In this document: positions 2,819 to 9,732 of the stretch, in pieces
Numbering within the stretch: position 1 is the first letter of the stretch
How the letters are laid out: every line of letters begins with the position of its first letter
Assembly (NCBI GenBank): GCA_003731685.1
Contig: RCNO01000021.1
Coordinates: forward strand, 2,808 to 42,654
DNA length: 39,847 nt
DNA from: Bacteroidetes/Chlorobi group bacterium MS-B_bin-24
GTDB lineage: Bacteria > Bacteroidota > Ignavibacteria > Kapaibacteriales > UBA2268
Direction of reading: 5' to 3'
The notes under the pieces: model-generated
The model's database searches: none
The model's input: the letters and a program-made list of their open reading frames with translations, nothing else
Told to the model about the DNA's origin: nothing
Translations under genes and position numbers: made by a program

Positions 2819-5065
2819 TTAAAATGCATAGCCGAGGCGGATGTGGAAAACGGGGGACGCGAAGGCTCTTTTTTCGCCGTTCGGGTCGTAAACCGGAAAG
2901 CCTACATCAAGAAAGAAGGGTCCAGCAGGTGTAATAAACCCAATTCCAAAGCCGGTTGCACAAGCAATGCCACGAATGTAGTCGCCCAGTGTATATTTCA
3001 CATAATAGTCACCCTTTTCGTTTTGAATCAGCCATTGGTAAGCATTCCCCGCATCGAAAAATAAAGTTACGGTAAAAAGTTCAAGTATATCGGCAAAAGT
3101 TTTACCAATATACGAAGGTCTGCCAAACCGAAAACGAGCCTCGAGCGAAGTTTCAAAAAGTGTCGAGTTGCCTACAAAGTCCCGCAAAAAGCTATTCACA
3201 ATGGCACTACTGCTGGTGTCGAGCCGAAAACCCTTGAAGTAGCGAAGTTGGCGCGAAGCCCAACCCCGAACACTATTGGCACCACCAGCGAAAAAGTGTC
3301 TTTCAAACGGGACGAAGCTGTTTTTCTTATCGAACCAGTAAATGTAGCCCGTTTGGACTCGCGCCCCAAGAACAAAGAAATTCGTCAAATCCCAGAACCA
3401 ACGCGACGAGAAGTTGAACCGATAATATTTTGCCATACCAAAGAAGAAGTACCCATCGAAGCTCAAATTGGTCAGCCGACCGCGTCGGGGAATCAGTGGA
3501 TTATCGCGCGTATCGCCCGTAAAATTAATCCCAAAGATTGAAGTTGTCAACAACGGATGGTATGTATTAATGTATCTATCCAAGTTGCCAAAAATTGCTA
3601 TCGACTGCTGAATTCGCAAAGAATCCTCGAAGGAGTTGGCATTGGAAAAAAAACTTTGCGAAGCAGTCGCAAAATTTTTGGGAACTTGCCGCTCGAAGTA
3701 AAAATCGAAATCGATGTAATTGAAATAAGTCCACAAAGGCAGCCTCGAGGAAAATTTCAGCGGGAAAGTAAAAGTATTCAGCTGCAAAGAACCGAACACT
3801 TTCCTTCGGGAATAAAGTATTGAACTCGAAAGCCCTACCCTTGTATTACCAATAATCCAAAGCAATGGTTGAAGAAAATTCACTCCTGTTTGAAATTCAT
3901 ATTCAAGAGATTTCCGCTCGAAGATTACCCTACTTATATCGATTCCAAAGGCTCGCAGGAAAAAACTCGCCGATTGAGCACCACCGAAAATATTCCTGTC
4001 CGATATTGTAAACTCGAAACCAATGTTGATGGCTTTTTCTGCTGTTGTTCTGTTTGTAAATAACCCAACTCCGTAGTCCCGGAGTTTTCGATAATTCAAA
4101 AGAACAGCGAGATTAATTGTCGAATCGGTGAAAGGATGAAATGCACTCGAAGTATCAATACGAACAAGTTCAAAAGTTCCGAGCGAGCTTAAATTAATTT
4201 CTGAACTTAAAAGCTTCTTCTGGCTGAATAAATCTCCGGGCTTAATATCCAAGTTGTTGTACTTAACATTAAAGCCTACCCTTTTTTGGTTCCCAACGCT
4301 GTCGATGAAATTAATATGCCCAATCCTGACAGGTTTCCCCGTTCGAAACTCAATATAAACAGAATCGATTTTCTTTAAAGTATCGATGACAACTCTCGGA
4401 GATAGAAAATCTGCATAAAAATAGCCATTGTTTCTTAAAATCACTCGGATTGCGGTTAATTCCTCTGCTAAAAGTTCTTCGTTGAAAGGTTCGCCAACAC
4501 TTACTTTTTTCACACTCCGAATTTCTTTTTCCACCTCTGGGCTTAATGAATCGAGCCCTTGAACAGCGATGAAATCAACCCGATATTGAACGCCTTCGGA
4601 AATCGAAAACTCAAGAACATTGATTTTTTCAATAGAATCCGGATAAAAGCGATAATCCACCGCAACATCGTGAAAACCATTTTGAAAGTAAAAATTGTAA
4701 ATTGTTTGCTTATCGTTTTCAGCCAGGGGCTCTTTGAAAAAAGAAATTTCATTCGCAAGAGAAAGGACAATAGATTTCAGCGACGAAGCAAGCAATTTCG
4801 GAGCCGCTCGATTGCGGGCTACATTTTCGTAGTAGAAAAAAAGGGCTCTATGGGGAAGGCTCTTCTTTGTTGGTTTCGAAGAAATCAAGCCCTGCAATTT
4901 TTCGGAAGAAACAAAAGAATTCCCCTTGAAAACTACTTTATTAATTTCAAATAAGTCGGGATGATAGAAAGAATGGAACAACTTTTTATTGTTTTCAATC
5001 GAGAGAGAATCAGTCGCCCAAAACAACAAGCCAAAAAGCAAAAAGCAGAATCTTTGAAACCACAT
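2819..5065 (-). CDS. Omp85-family outer-membrane assembly protein (BamA/TamA-like)
   Basis: The ORF track gives 775 residues, but the start is better placed at internal Met28 (MWFQRFCFLLFGLLF), a clean signal peptide, because the preceding 27 codons run through the terminator of the upstream gene. The resulting 748-residue protein has N-terminal POTRA-like segments (KVVFKGNSFVSSEKL; YNFYFQNGFHDVAVDYRF; RVDFIAVQGLDSL) and a C-terminal barrel. The barrel has the Omp85 signatures GDTRDNPLIPRRG and GGANSVRGW, the latter being the loop-6 VRGW/F motif. It should insert or translocate outer-membrane proteins. No Skp or other Bam gene adjoins it, so it may be an accessory paralogue (TamA-like) rather than the main BamA. 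Confidence 0.88.
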   Translation of the reverse strand: MWFQRFCFLLFGLLFWATDSLSIENNKKLFHSFYHPDLFEINKVVFKGNSFVSSEKLQGLISSKPTKKSLPHRALFFYYENVARNRAAPKLLASSLKSIVLSLANEISFFKEPLAENDKQTIYNFYFQNGFHDVAVDYRFYPDSIEKINVLEFSISEGVQYRVDFIAVQGLDSLSPEVEKEIRSVKKVSVGEPFNEELLAEELTAIRVILRNNGYFYADFLSPRVVIDTLKKIDSVYIEFRTGKPVRIGHINFIDSVGNQKRVGFNVKYNNLDIKPGDLFSQKKLLSSEINLSSLGTFELVRIDTSSAFHPFTDSTINLAVLLNYRKLRDYGVGLFTNRTTAEKAINIGFEFTISDRNIFGGAQSASFFLRAFGIDISRVIFERKSLEYEFQTGVNFLQPLLWIIGNTRVGLSSSILYSRRKVFGSLQLNTFTFPLKFSSRLPLWTYFNYIDFDFYFERQVPKNFATASQSFFSNANSFEDSLRIQQSIAIFGNLDRYINTYHPLLTTSIFGINFTGDTRDNPLIPRRGRLTNLSFDGYFFFGMAKYYRFNFSSRWFWDLTNFFVLGARVQTGYIYWFDKKNSFVPFERHFFAGGANSVRGWASRQLRYFKGFRLDTSSSAIVNSFLRDFVGNSTLFETSLEARFRFGRPSYIGKTFADILELFTVTLFFDAGNAYQWLIQNEKGDYYVKYTLGDYIRGIACATGFGIGFITPAGPFFLDVGFPVYDPNGEKRAFASPVFHIRLGYAF

Positions 5066-5092
5066 TCTAAATTTTACAGCGAAATAAATTTG

Positions 5093-5136
5093 CAAAATAA
5101 AAAGACTGCTCCGAATAGCAAAGGATGGAGCAGTCT
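5093..5136 (-). terminator. Intrinsic terminator of the DUF2795 gene
   Basis: A 10-bp perfect stem (AGACTGCTCC 5103-5112 with GGAGCAGTCT 5127-5136, 14-nt loop) is followed on the minus strand by TTTTTATTTT. It starts 15 bp after the DUF2795 stop codon. Confidence 0.85.
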
Positions 5137-5150
5137 TGTGTTGCAAAAGG

Positions 5151-5464: not shown

Positions 5465-6196
5465 TTATTTTATTTCTTGGTAATAAATTTCATCAAAATT
5501 GTGCTGAATTATTAAAACCGAAGGCGAGCCAATCCCCGAGGCAACTTTAAAATCGCCACGCAAAACAATTGTGTATCCTTTGCCGGGCAAAAAGCTGTAA
5601 CTTTTGTAAAAGAACAAAACCGAATCTTTCTCGGCATCCCGAATTTCGATATTGTACTTTTCGGGATAAGTTGTAAAAAACTTCGTAAAGCTCCGAAAAC
5701 GTATACCCACTGCCACTGGATATTGTTGCTCAACCTTGAAAACCAAACTCCCCGACGAGTTATTAGCAATATTAACAAATCGAAAGTAAGAATTTGTAAA
5801 TGAATATGAGCTTAATGTATCGTAAAGAAGTAGTGGCTGAATCCTTTTTTGAAGCTGATAAATAAGGAAAGTATATGGTACCGCTTTTCGTAAACTCACC
5901 ATTCCATTGAAAAGAGTCGAATCGGATTTGTACAAAACAACAAAGTTTATAACCCCGGGAAGAACATTAATATATCGGAATCCCTCTTCCATACCGTAAT
6001 AAAGAGCAGAATGCAACAGGAAGTCCCCAGCGTAAATTTTCAACTTTTCGAATTGTGGTGCGCAATTCACACACATCACTTTGGAATATTGGGACGGAGT
6101 TATTTCCTGCTCGGTGTCCAAACTCGGTATACACTGACACCCAACCAAAATGCATAGTGCCAAAAAGTAAAATTTATATAGAATATATTTCCGCAT
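5465..6196 (-). CDS. DUF4397-like lipoprotein
   Basis: The N-terminus MRKYILYKFYFLALCILVGC ends in a lipobox (LVGC), so the protein should be lipidated at Cys20. The mature part resembles DUF4397 repeats: VMCVNCAPQFEKLKIYAGD, then YGMEEGFRYINVLPGVINFVV (the sGY..vpaG element) and YFRFVNIANNSSGSLVF starting a second unit. DUF4397 proteins are Ig-like beta-sandwich envelope proteins of unknown role. It begins 5 nt after the anti-sigma gene stop and is probably the last gene of that sigma-factor operon, hence a candidate ligand, partner or target of the signalling pair. Confidence 0.65.
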   Translation of the reverse strand: MRKYILYKFYFLALCILVGCQCIPSLDTEQEITPSQYSKVMCVNCAPQFEKLKIYAGDFLLHSALYYGMEEGFRYINVLPGVINFVVLYKSDSTLFNGMVSLRKAVPYTFLIYQLQKRIQPLLLYDTLSSYSFTNSYFRFVNIANNSSGSLVFKVEQQYPVAVGIRFRSFTKFFTTYPEKYNIEIRDAEKDSVLFFYKSYSFLPGKGYTIVLRGDFKVASGIGSPSVLIIQHNFDEIYYQEIK

Positions 6197-6201
6197 ATCT
6201 T

Positions 6202-7458
6202 TTAATATTTCACACTAACCCCATAAGTTATACCATTCTTTCGAGTTTGATACAAATTGTTTTGAACTTTGTACCAAAGGATAGTTCCTTCCCAACCAAG
6301 GAAAAGCGAAACTCTACGGTCGGGCGTGTATTGCAAACCTATTGTACCACGAGCGAGAGGTCCAACTGGCGTTCCACCAACGAAAATTTTAGCAAAAGGT
6401 TTAAGCCACTCGAAACTGAACAAATTGCTAACAGCCTGCTGATAATACAAACCATACCACCAAAGCAGGGGATTCTGTTTGTAAAACATCTTGTCGTCAT
6501 CACGAATCAAAGTAAACCTCTGCGGGAACTTTTCCTGTCCGAACTCGAAGCCAATTGTGCTATTTTTCCCAAGCTCGTAACCAATTCCAATGCCAGCATT
6601 ATTCAAAAGGCTTGTCTGAGTTGTGTTAATGTTGACTTCTGGCTGAGAATTAAGCATATACCCACGGAAAGTAAGAGTAAATTTACTTAAATGATTTAAA
6701 ATTGGTTCAATGTGATTAACTGGAACCTCAAAATTCTGATTGATTGGGATATTAGATTTAATCTTTCCATCCTGAACGAATATTTTATTAAAAGCAATCG
6801 GAAGCTGGTTCAAAGTATTACGAGAAGTTGTAACAGGCTCAAAAGTCCTGGATGGCTCTGTTGCGTTCGAACTAATTGAATTGTCCGAAGGTAAATTGTT
6901 AGCTTGCAAATTGAACTGCCGTAGCCACTTCTCGAAAGCGGATTGGAAAGCCCTTTCCAAATTTGCAACAGGCATAGTGTATGTCTTATTCTCGGTTGCA
7001 ACAATTTTAGGAACTTCGACAGCACTACCCACTGGAATCCCGGGCTGAGAGACGACTTGGATTCCTCGCTGAACGGGCTCCGCAGTTCGCTGCCAAGGAA
7101 TGAAAATCCAGAGCAAAACAAAAGAAACCAACCCACCGAAAATACTCGATGCAACAAAAGGAAAATACTTGGCTACAATTTGTTTGAAATTGTATAAAAG
7201 ACCAAGCGGAGCAGGACTTGTTCGCGGATATGCAGAGTTTGGTATTTTAAAGTCCAAGCTCGAGAAGATATAATTTGTTGCATCGAGCGGCGGAGCAATT
7301 GATTGCATATCTTTTTGGAAGAGTTGATTGAATTGCATTTGCTGGTCGAAATATTCCCTCAACTCTGGATTTCGGGAAAGTTCGGCAAACAGCAAATCCT
7401 TTTCAACCTGATTCAATTCCCCTTCCAAATACAAGTCAATTAATTTGATATAATCCAT
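6202..7458 (-). CDS. Putative dual-membrane-spanning anti-sigma factor (N-terminal anti-sigma, TM helix, C-terminal beta-barrel-like domain)
   Basis: Residues 1-55 (MDYIKLIDLYLEGELNQVEK...) resemble the cytoplasmic helical domain of anti-sigma factors, with the typical LYLEGEL and 'LxxNPELREYF' phrases but no zinc-binding HxxxCxxC. A single strongly hydrophobic helix follows at about residues 98-122 (FVASSIFGGLVSFVLLWIFI). Residues 125-255 are a low-complexity Ser/Asn/Pro-rich linker. From about 256 to the end alternating beta-strands appear (GIGIGYELGKNSTIGFEFG; RGTIGLQYTPDRRVSLFLGW), closing with an aromatic C-terminus (YGVSVKY) like small outer-membrane barrels. The gene lies 17 bp after an ECF sigma gene. 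This layout matches the Dma class reported in Bacteroides. Barrel assignment is inferred from pattern only. Confidence 0.72.
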   Translation of the reverse strand: MDYIKLIDLYLEGELNQVEKDLLFAELSRNPELREYFDQQMQFNQLFQKDMQSIAPPLDATNYIFSSLDFKIPNSAYPRTSPAPLGLLYNFKQIVAKYFPFVASSIFGGLVSFVLLWIFIPWQRTAEPVQRGIQVVSQPGIPVGSAVEVPKIVATENKTYTMPVANLERAFQSAFEKWLRQFNLQANNLPSDNSISSNATEPSRTFEPVTTSRNTLNQLPIAFNKIFVQDGKIKSNIPINQNFEVPVNHIEPILNHLSKFTLTFRGYMLNSQPEVNINTTQTSLLNNAGIGIGYELGKNSTIGFEFGQEKFPQRFTLIRDDDKMFYKQNPLLWWYGLYYQQAVSNLFSFEWLKPFAKIFVGGTPVGPLARGTIGLQYTPDRRVSLFLGWEGTILWYKVQNNLYQTRKNGITYGVSVKY

Positions 7459-7475
7459 AGCATTTATCCCATTTA

Positions 7476-8039
7476 TTATTTCTCATTTCTTAAAAAAGGA
7501 ATTAAATAATTACGAAGTTTTTCTTTTGCACGATAGTAACGAGTTTTAACCGTCGCAAGTGATTCACCTGTAATCTCTGCAATCTCTGCAAATGTTAAAC
7601 TCTGGTAATGGTGGAGCACAAAAATTTCTCGGACAGGGAAGTCGAGCAAAGCTAAGGCGTTCGCAATGATTTGTGAAGTTTCGCTCCGTTCAAGTTCTTC
7701 ATCGAAAACCGAAGTGCGATTATCTTCGAACGGGACAATCATCTTCTTGTCACGAAACCGATTCAAACACAAATTTCGGGCAATTTTCAACAACAAAGGC
7801 AAAATGTTGGTGACCTTTGCTCCACCCACACAGCTGGAATAAAATTTCAAAAAAGTTTCCTGAAAAACATCTTTGGCATCAGTCCGATTCCCCAATATTC
7901 TTAAAATAAAAGCAAAAAGCATCTGGCTGTATCGGTTATATATCTCGGTGAAAGCCAATTCGGCAATTTCCTTTCGGCTCGTAAGAGCCTGACAAAGTTC
8001 AAAATCGGACATCTGACCAAAGTTATCGAAACTTTCCAT
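7476..8039 (-). CDS. ECF-subfamily RNA polymerase sigma factor
   Basis: The 187-residue protein carries sigma region 2 (YNRYSQMLFAFILRILGN, then DAKDVFQETFLKFY) and region 4 (REIFVLHHYQSLTFAEIAEI followed by the TVKTRYYRAKEKLRNYL recognition helix). It lacks regions 1 and 3, as in the ECF group. It would direct RNA polymerase to envelope-related promoters and be held inactive by the product of the next gene. Its ATG overlaps the stop of the upstream lipoprotein gene (TAATG), so translation is likely coupled to that envelope protein. Confidence 0.93.
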   Translation of the reverse strand: MESFDNFGQMSDFELCQALTSRKEIAELAFTEIYNRYSQMLFAFILRILGNRTDAKDVFQETFLKFYSSCVGGAKVTNILPLLLKIARNLCLNRFRDKKMIVPFEDNRTSVFDEELERSETSQIIANALALLDFPVREIFVLHHYQSLTFAEIAEITGESLATVKTRYYRAKEKLRNYLIPFLRNEK

Positions 8040-9142
8040 TATCTCTTATATTTATTCCAAAATGCTCTATAAACATTGCTACTAATTATCGTTGGTTTAA
8101 TAGTCTTATCCTTTAAAGTGTTTAAATCAACAATTTCCAAAGTCCCGTGAAACAAATTTAAATCATCCTTGTAATATCTTGTGTAAAGTATTTTAGAGTT
8201 CTGGAAATTAACTTGAGGGAATAAATTATAGGAATAACCGGAACCAGGGGAGAGGAACTGATATTTGCTGACAGGCTCAGCAAAGTTTACAAACCAAAGG
8301 GAGCCTTCGCGTCCGGTAATGTAAAATTTCCCATCCTCGAGTGTTGGAACAACTTCGACGCAACCAATTAAATCCACTGGGGAAGCATTTTCGTAATTGC
8401 CTTCGTAACTTGCAGAATAAATCAAGTCGTAATTTTCCTCGTTCGAAATAGAAAGGTAAACGAAGACCCCTTCTTCGCTCCACGAAAGACTTGGCTCACC
8501 AAAAATTTCATTGATTTGCCCGGGCAAAAGCTTCGTAGATATTTTTATTGGTCTATCGGCTTCGCAATAGTACACAACAAGTTGTTGTGGGGAAGTATAA
8601 ATATCCTTCCCTTCGACAAAAGCAATTTTGGTTCCGTCGGGTGAAAATGCTGGAAGAGTTCCTTTACAGAAATTGCTACTCAATTTAAAAAATTCACTTT
8701 CGTTACGAACCAACCACAATTCATTTCCATTGGCTCCAATAGCAATAGAGCGACCATTGCTCGAAAGTATAGCAAAATCTCGCGAGTACCATTTGTAATC
8801 GCCGGCGATTATTCTTTGCTGAGTCCCATCGATTTTGGCAAGCACAATATCTTGCGAACCCGATGGATTATTTCGAACAAACACAATTTTTTTATCGCGC
8901 GATGGAGGTGAATACAAAATTCCGTTCTCAACAATATATCGCGGTTTCTTCTCTTGAAGGTCGATTTGGAAGATTCCAGGTTGGTTTGTATTAAAGGGAA
9001 GTGCAGTAAAATAAATATCTCCTTCGGGAATAGAAAAAACATCATCGTAACGGCAGGGGTCGCACGAAGCAAAGGCAAAAATCACTAATGCCAACACTCC
9101 GATGCTTTGTATTATTTTCTTTATACCCTGCCTCACAATCAC
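8039..9142 (-). CDS. Lipoprotein with PD40/TolB-like beta-propeller repeats
   Basis: The N-terminus has a hydrophobic stretch ending in a lipobox-like FAFASC (Cys27), predicting a lipoprotein. The mature part contains WD40-like PD40 repeats, most clearly FSPDGTKIAFVEGKDIY, with weaker copies around SRDFAILSSNGRSIAIG and YSPPSRDKKIVFVRN. Such propellers act as periplasmic or surface scaffolds, as in TolB. The ORF-track start is GTG with a weak ribosome site, so the exact start is uncertain. It is the first gene of the ECF sigma operon and overlaps sigma by 1 nt. It could be a sensor component or simply a co-regulated envelope protein. Confidence 0.75.
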   Translation of the reverse strand: MIVRQGIKKIIQSIGVLALVIFAFASCDPCRYDDVFSIPEGDIYFTALPFNTNQPGIFQIDLQEKKPRYIVENGILYSPPSRDKKIVFVRNNPSGSQDIVLAKIDGTQQRIIAGDYKWYSRDFAILSSNGRSIAIGANGNELWLVRNESEFFKLSSNFCKGTLPAFSPDGTKIAFVEGKDIYTSPQQLVVYYCEADRPIKISTKLLPGQINEIFGEPSLSWSEEGVFVYLSISNEENYDLIYSASYEGNYENASPVDLIGCVEVVPTLEDGKFYITGREGSLWFVNFAEPVSKYQFLSPGSGYSYNLFPQVNFQNSKILYTRYYKDDLNLFHGTLEIVDLNTLKDKTIKPTIISSNVYRAFWNKYKR

Positions 9143-9237
9143 TTTTCAAAAATTTGCAACTTCTACAAAGTAATAGACACATAAAACTTAAAAAAGTTCC
9201 AAAAATTTCAAAAAAATTTTAAAATTTTTTAAATATT

Positions 9238-9732
9238 TTAATTTTTTGTTCCAGATGAGATATTAAAAACTTTGAACAAATCGAGCAGAATTACGAGTCT
9301 ATCGGGCAAATTTACAACCCCCACAATGTAATTCTCCCCTACTTTGGAGTTAGTGTCGATTGGATTGGTCTCTATCATATTCTTGTTGACCCAAAGAACT
9401 TCGTTCATCCTATCGACAAGAATTCCAATTATTTTGTCATCCAAATGAAGAACAATAATTCGAGAGTTGGAACCATAGGTTCCCGGTTCGAGGTTTAAAA
9501 TTTTTCGAAGGTCGACAACTGGAATAACTTTGCCACGAAGATTAATTACGCCTTCGACGTAATGTGGGGCGTTTGGCACACGGGTTATTTTCGTCATTGT
9601 CGTGATTTCCTGAACCTTTAAGATGTCGATTCCAAAGTGTTCATTCGCAAGCTCAAATGTTACCAGTTGAACCATTTCGCCAACCTGAGCTTCTTGGTTA
9701 ATCAAACTCGATGATTTTACGACCTCTTCCAT
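9238..9732 (-). CDS. cheW: CheW-like chemotaxis coupling protein
   Basis: The 164-residue protein is a single CheW domain: QLVTFELANEHFGIDILKVQE, then the conserved VEGVINLRGKVIPVVDLRK and the closing IVGVVNLPDRLVILLDLFKV. CheW bridges chemoreceptors and the CheA kinase beneath the inner membrane. A good ribosome site (TTGAGGAGAAT) fixes the start. It begins 12 bp after era on the same strand, so it is likely co-transcribed with a housekeeping GTPase gene, and no cheA, receptor or flagellar gene is in the window. A solitary CheW could serve a remote chemosensory array or gliding/pilus system. Confidence 0.92.
   Translation of the reverse strand: MEEVVKSSSLINQEAQVGEMVQLVTFELANEHFGIDILKVQEITTMTKITRVPNAPHYVEGVINLRGKVIPVVDLRKILNLEPGTYGSNSRIIVLHLDDKIIGILVDRMNEVLWVNKNMIETNPIDTNSKVGENYIVGVVNLPDRLVILLDLFKVFNISSGTKN

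Follow-up and report, generated by a model that had tools for sequence, protein, structure and literature searches.

The window, as we call the whole 39,847-nucleotide stretch of DNA analysed here, carries a gene module encoding a PD40 lipoprotein, an extracytoplasmic function (ECF) sigma factor, an anti-sigma factor and a second lipoprotein. Modelling confirms that the anti-sigma factor combines an anti-sigma domain, one transmembrane (TM) helix, a disordered linker and an eight-stranded β-barrel, a layout that would allow one polypeptide to span both membranes. This layout is already known from the Dma proteins of Bacteroides; here it is apparently built of unrelated parts, present in many copies and usually paired with a lipoprotein. 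As judged from profile comparisons, the Kapabacteria family to which the protein belongs is most likely, but not proven to be, an independently evolved, Dma-like family of dual-membrane anti-sigma factors and not a member of Dma. The features of the locus are as follows.

9177..9200, minus strand: candidate promoter GGAACTTTTTTAAGTTTTATGTGT, 35 to 58 nt 5′ of the PD40 start, conserved in relatives
8039..9142, minus strand: lipoprotein with a PD40 beta-propeller, whose gene opens the putative operon in this subclade (Pfam PD40, 3.3e-05; lipobox FASC)
7476..8039, minus strand: ECF sigma factor (Pfam Sigma70_r4_2, 3.6e-14; Sigma70_r2, 9.5e-11)
6202..7458, minus strand: Dma-like, putatively dual-membrane-spanning anti-sigma factor, 418 aa (open reading frame, AF2, Foldseek, hhalign)
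7249..7458, minus strand: its class I-like non-zinc anti-sigma domain, residues 1 to 70 (four-helix AF2 model; hhalign; RseA_N in relatives)
7102..7200, minus strand: predicted inner-membrane helix, residues 87 to 119, hydrophobic core at about 102 to 120 (AF2 helix; hydropathy)
6694..7098, minus strand: predicted disordered periplasmic linker of about 135 residues, 121 to 255 (pLDDT mostly below 50)
6205..6693, minus strand: predicted 8-strand outer-membrane β-barrel, residues 256 to 418, with a C-terminal Tyr (AF2 pLDDT; Foldseek)
5465..6196, minus strand: DUF4397 lipoprotein, gene 3 of the core module, with the post-Cys peptide CQCIPSLDTEQEITP (Pfam DUF4397, 3.2e-10)

The anti-sigma open reading frame starts 17 nt past that of the sigma factor and lies 5 nt ahead of the DUF4397 lipoprotein gene. 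A first-pass annotation of this DNA had described both the preceding ECF sigma gene and the two flanking lipoproteins, and the Pfam matches listed above bear it out. Orthologs of the PD40 lipoprotein lie 5′ of the sigma gene at loci L059 to L063, L175 and others. Beyond the operon, a CheW-like protein (9238-9732, minus strand) is encoded directly 5′ and a large Omp85/TamA-BamA-like protein (2819-5146, minus strand) just 3′ of the module, both identified by reading only.

An AlphaFold2 (AF2) model of the 418-residue protein, made with an input of 29 aligned sequences, places four helices in residues 3 to 67, with pLDDT values of 89 to 97 up to about residue 50 and 73 to 75 beyond it. The membrane segment falls within a long helix (residues 87 to 119), and hydropathy reaches its maximum of 2.29 in the 19-residue stretch starting at residue 102. 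From about residue 121 to 250 pLDDT is mostly below 50, with one predicted helix at 164 to 182, and eight strands follow across residues 260 to 417, mostly at 93 to 98. All 28 Foldseek hits in the PDB at E≤0.001 are outer-membrane or designed membrane barrels; the best alignments are to the 8-strand barrels NspA, OmpA and Ail (TM 0.5 to 0.6 on target). By sequence, the window protein has no Pfam, NCBIfam or PDB match above cut-off. The single TM helix, the linker of roughly 130 residues and the aromatic last residue described in the first-pass annotation all stand, and the C-terminal barrel, which it had read from sequence pattern and proposed to check by structure prediction, is modelled with high confidence, as that check called for. 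Its N-terminal anti-sigma-like domain likewise holds, with the limit corrected from residues 1 to 55 to residues 1 to about 70.

The same layout is widespread in related genomes. Family matches occur in 57 of 60 of them, many of the homologs being full length, and the linker keeps a length of 112 to 199 residues (median 139) with 0% Cys across the family, which together indicate that the layout is beyond chance. We compiled 100 unique members, each of which has an anti-sigma domain as well as a barrel. An ECF sigma gene lies directly 5′ of every one of the 100 (median gap, 21 nt) and was not detected at three further loci outside this set. The C-terminal residue is F, Y or W in 74 of the 100, and the last or next-to-last residue is F, Y, W, L or I in 99. 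Among 396 sampled genomes of the phylum, matches that cover anti-sigma domain and barrel together are restricted to the window's order, and the family has at least 12 distinct loci in one genome (G050). Three members (L067, L068, and L077) have the same architecture but are more distant and come from another taxonomic family of the same class. The nearest named relatives, from a scan of genome contigs with a six-member alignment, come from Candidatus Kapaibacterium, Kapabacteria and "Ignavibacteria" metagenome-assembled genomes. They place the protein in Kapabacteria, an FCB lineage outside Bacteroidia, in keeping with the earlier assignment; Kapaibacteriia are now Eximiradiia within Bacteroidota at NCBI, and GTDB also has them in Bacteroidota. 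An IP-x-x-S-like motif is enriched at about residues 138 to 150, some 25 residues past the TM helix, and is a candidate protease or partner site. Taken as an [IVLMF]P..S-like pattern, it is present in 38 of 100 members against 13 expected, an excess that we judged too weak to name it a site-1 protease motif.

The anti-sigma domain is class I-like and, by profile comparison, clearly homologous to ordinary short anti-sigma factors. Compared by hhalign with short inner-membrane anti-sigma factors, mostly from sister lineages, the Kapabacteria domain aligns with a probability of 99.6% (E, 5e-24). Pfam RseA_N matches 4 of 29 relatives (best, 8.8e-5), NCBIfam "anti-sigma factor" models match 4 of 29 and RseA matches one, and the zinc motif HxxxCxxC is absent from all 100 members. 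The class I anti-sigma factors RseA and RsiW (PMC7406223) likewise have a three-helix bundle followed by a fourth helix, with RseA further resembling the Kapabacteria domains in its RseA_N sequence similarity, but they lack an attached outer-membrane barrel. The main text of that paper contains no occurrence of "outer membrane" and does not mention a barrel on a class I domain.

In about one-third of relatives the sigma and anti-sigma genes are in-frame with each other, and read-through translation of such pairs yielded a paired alignment of 26 rows. The AF2 model of one pair, from relative L090, has a pTM of 0.78 for the sigma factor plus anti-sigma domain, although the closed form may be open to the sigma factor on its own as well; the linker joining the chains is an artefact of stop-codon read-through. 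The modelled sigma part closely matches some anti-sigma-bound structures (TM 0.83 to 0.85 for SigW/RsiW, 0.83 for CnrH/CnrY and 0.78 to 0.80 for RpoE/NepR), as opposed to only 0.35 to 0.45 for ECF sigma factors bound to RNA polymerase. Because the match to the RseA arrangement is just 0.43 to 0.46, the predicted closed complex is RsiW-like rather than RseA-like. Distance matrices correlate at 0.60 between sigma factor and anti-sigma domain, 0.51 between sigma factor and barrel and 0.52 between anti-sigma domain and barrel. The corresponding partial correlations with the sigma factor are 0.46 for the anti-sigma domain and 0.28 for the barrel, and the resampling interval for the difference between the two sigma correlations (-0.02 to 0.19) just includes zero.

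A lipoprotein is the next gene 3′ of the anti-sigma gene at 72 of 97 loci (about 10 more by eye), compared with 13 lipoproteins among 279 open reading frames in a 400-kb control stretch of a relative's chromosome. The same relaxed lipobox test was used for loci and controls; a stricter one (58 of 99) undercounted. The lipoprotein bodies fall into about 30 clusters without detected mutual similarity (DUF4397, Ig-like, TIG, META, and unknown), and these unrelated bodies have in common a pattern just past the lipidated cysteine, approximately C-x-[SD]-P-x-D-[LIV]-D-[TA]-[PN]-R. When a matrix built from the four largest clusters is applied to the 26 held-out ones, it scores 5.4, against -7.2 for shuffled sequences (sd, 1.1; maximum, -3.1) and -9.7 for control lipoproteins. 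The motif is missing from several clusters, and the DUF4397 lipoprotein of the window is atypical for it (score, 2 of 5). Since the conserved peptide is attached to unrelated bodies, these sequences suggest that the lipoproteins are interchangeable sensors docking on one signalling chassis, and we infer that the post-Cys peptide is a docking peptide. The main alternative is a lineage-specific lipoprotein sorting signal, though most of the 13 control lipoproteins do not have the peptide.

We then compared the family with Bacteroidia Dma, drawing on PMC13088901 and on retrieved Bacteroidia loci (Dma2-type loci located via the DUF4943 neighbour and other Dma loci via search). Both place an anti-sigma domain, a TM helix, a long disordered tether and a C-terminal barrel in one chain next to an ECF sigma gene, and the Dma2-type loci examined also have a lipoprotein within the operon. 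The first-pass annotation had gone further and found the layout to fit the Dma class itself, but membership in that class is not supported: the family HMMs gave no cross-hits in either direction (100 versus 19 proteins), and by hhalign no homology was detected between the anti-sigma domains (probability, 0.4%) or between the barrels (23%, partial and off-register). As a control, halves drawn at random from either family align with a probability of 98.7 to 100%. We rejected a family match with Dma at the domain level. Dma barrels match Pfam OMP_b-brl in 14 of 18 cases and OMP_b-brl_2 in 16 of 18, whereas 0 of 29 Kapabacteria barrels match either. The Kapabacteria anti-sigma domain is also longer, about 70 aa and class I-like, compared with a Dma N terminus of only about 45 residues. 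Further differences are the many paralogs in Kapabacteria genomes and the common post-Cys peptide of their downstream lipoproteins. In a sigma tree, the sigma factors linked to Dma group in a separate clade with a support of 100/100, but a joint Kapabacteria and Dma sigma clade is also compatible with the data (AU p, 0.29), so the sigma tree alone is no proof of independence. Among the Bacteroidia proteins, two Dma3-like ones (L127 and L128; 547 and 567 aa) have a sigma domain fused N-terminally to the anti-sigma part. Lipoproteins 3′ of Bacteroidia Dma (L113, L114, L117, and L120) have another N-terminal pattern, charged residues followed by Y-x-A-N-x-P, which is perhaps a parallel partner peptide.

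Taken as a whole, the locus is probably best explained as a dual-membrane anti-sigma module with lipoprotein docking, release by proteolysis of the tether and an origin separate from Dma. A single anti-sigma polypeptide would reach from the cytoplasm through the inner membrane and periplasm to the outer membrane, with its N-terminal domain holding the sigma factor in an inactive state at the inner membrane and its barrel serving as the outer-membrane anchor of the other end. The gene-3 lipoprotein would dock on the barrel or tether via its post-Cys peptide and display a sensing body that can be exchanged. The trigger would be a change at the outer membrane: the lipoprotein might be lost or shifted, the barrel might fail to assemble, or spacing or tension might be altered. 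The tether would then be exposed to proteolysis in the periplasm; the anti-sigma domain would be freed and destroyed, and the released sigma factor would activate its targets. The family most likely arose, separately from Bacteroidia Dma, by addition of a linker and barrel to an ordinary short anti-sigma factor. In a bolder form, which we offer tentatively, the dual-membrane anti-sigma factor was invented at least twice, and Kapabacteria use theirs as a plug-in signalling chassis: the sigma/anti-sigma/barrel core stays constant and has expanded to a dozen or more copies in certain genomes, and mutually unrelated lipoprotein sensors plug into it via one N-terminal peptide docking in or on the barrel.

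Known systems offer partial parallels. In E. coli, the lipoprotein RcsF is threaded through OmpA and signals via IgaA and a phosphorelay. It resembles the proposed docking in pairing a lipoprotein with an 8-strand barrel as envelope sensor, but it acts without a sigma factor. Cell-surface signalling anti-sigma factors (PMC11637429) likewise connect an ECF sigma factor with an event at the outer membrane; their receptor is a TonB-dependent protein distinct from the anti-sigma factor, whereas the barrel described here is built into it. Deleting dma2 in B. thetaiotaomicron lifts repression of the operon that encodes it, das2 included, and the vesiculation phenotype of the mutant requires Das2 (PMC13088901), which backs the general logic by analogy only. 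If the proposed mechanism is true, a direct physical connection from outer membrane to transcription has evolved repeatedly, and such signalling, far from being peculiar to Bacteroides, is a major mode in a lineage that has been little studied. With the paralogs and the peptide conserved among the lipoproteins, it would become testable what dual-membrane anti-sigma factors sense and how the signal crosses the periplasm.

Other readings of the same protein account for part of these data. Were its C-terminal region a soluble periplasmic β domain, the protein would be a conventional single-membrane anti-sigma factor, which would agree with the lack of a Pfam barrel family above cut-off and of a solved relative by sequence. 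We consider this highly improbable in view of the confident AF2 barrel, the restriction of significant PDB hits to membrane barrels, the conserved hydrophobic C terminus and the long tether of kept length. A true but highly diverged Dma, sharing its origin with the Bacteroidia family but eroded in similarity, would explain why the four parts come in the same order beside an ECF sigma gene, on tethers of similar length (median, 126 in Dma versus 139 in Kapabacteria), and why a lipoprotein adjoins Bacteroidia dma at several loci (DUF4943 protein; L085/L086). Outer-membrane barrels may all have a remote common ancestry missed by profile methods, and the joint sigma clade noted above is compatible with such an origin. 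The gulf between the cross-family hhalign values and those of within-family halves, the zero cross-hits among 119 proteins, the short Dma N terminus and the homology of the Kapabacteria domain to short class I-like anti-sigma factors instead make it unlikely.

A different signal within the same architecture has somewhat better prospects, though we still doubt it. The barrel might be a mere anchor or quality probe reporting outer-membrane barrel assembly, that is, a sensor of BAM load, with the lipoproteins as products of the regulon and not partners. A terminal aromatic or other hydrophobic residue is what a BAM substrate should have, operon products could be merely co-regulated, and operon neighbours rise in the B. 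thetaiotaomicron dma2 mutant (PMC13088901). What speaks for a physical partnership is the far higher score of the common post-Cys peptide than of shuffled sequences, together with the frequency of a lipoprotein as the next gene; the dozen or more loci in a single genome argue against one common assembly signal.

The candidate promoter GGAACTTTTTTAAGTTTTATGTGT is kept in most orthologous operons for which the upstream region is available. Its pattern, GNRACYTTTT-N7-TATGTGT, has 6 sites in the window genome and 0 to 6 per genome across seven genomes, with zero occurrences of the reversed pattern in the same seven, and it is not enriched 5′ of ordinary genes (400 kb). In five genomes such a site lies 5′ of orthologs of one oxidoreductase-like gene (L218, L219, L221, L223, and L227); others precede another ECF sigma gene in two genomes (G000, L228; G001, L224), a NUDIX-like gene in two, and several secreted proteins, all these gene identities being by reading. 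These mixed targets could reflect a shared regulon or a sigma cascade. The genus has a second paralogous sigma/anti-sigma/lipoprotein operon (L076, on G000 contig C2:30000-36000; L089, L093, L096, and L104), in which a conserved promoter, GTAAC-N16-TGTTA, lies about 36 nt 5′ of the sigma start. GTAAC-N16-TGTTA was rejected as the promoter of the window operon because it marks this second operon instead. In several genomes it also occurs 5′ of genes for large secreted proteins, vWA-like or of the "GxEFWIAIPPNE" type, and these sites mark a candidate regulon.
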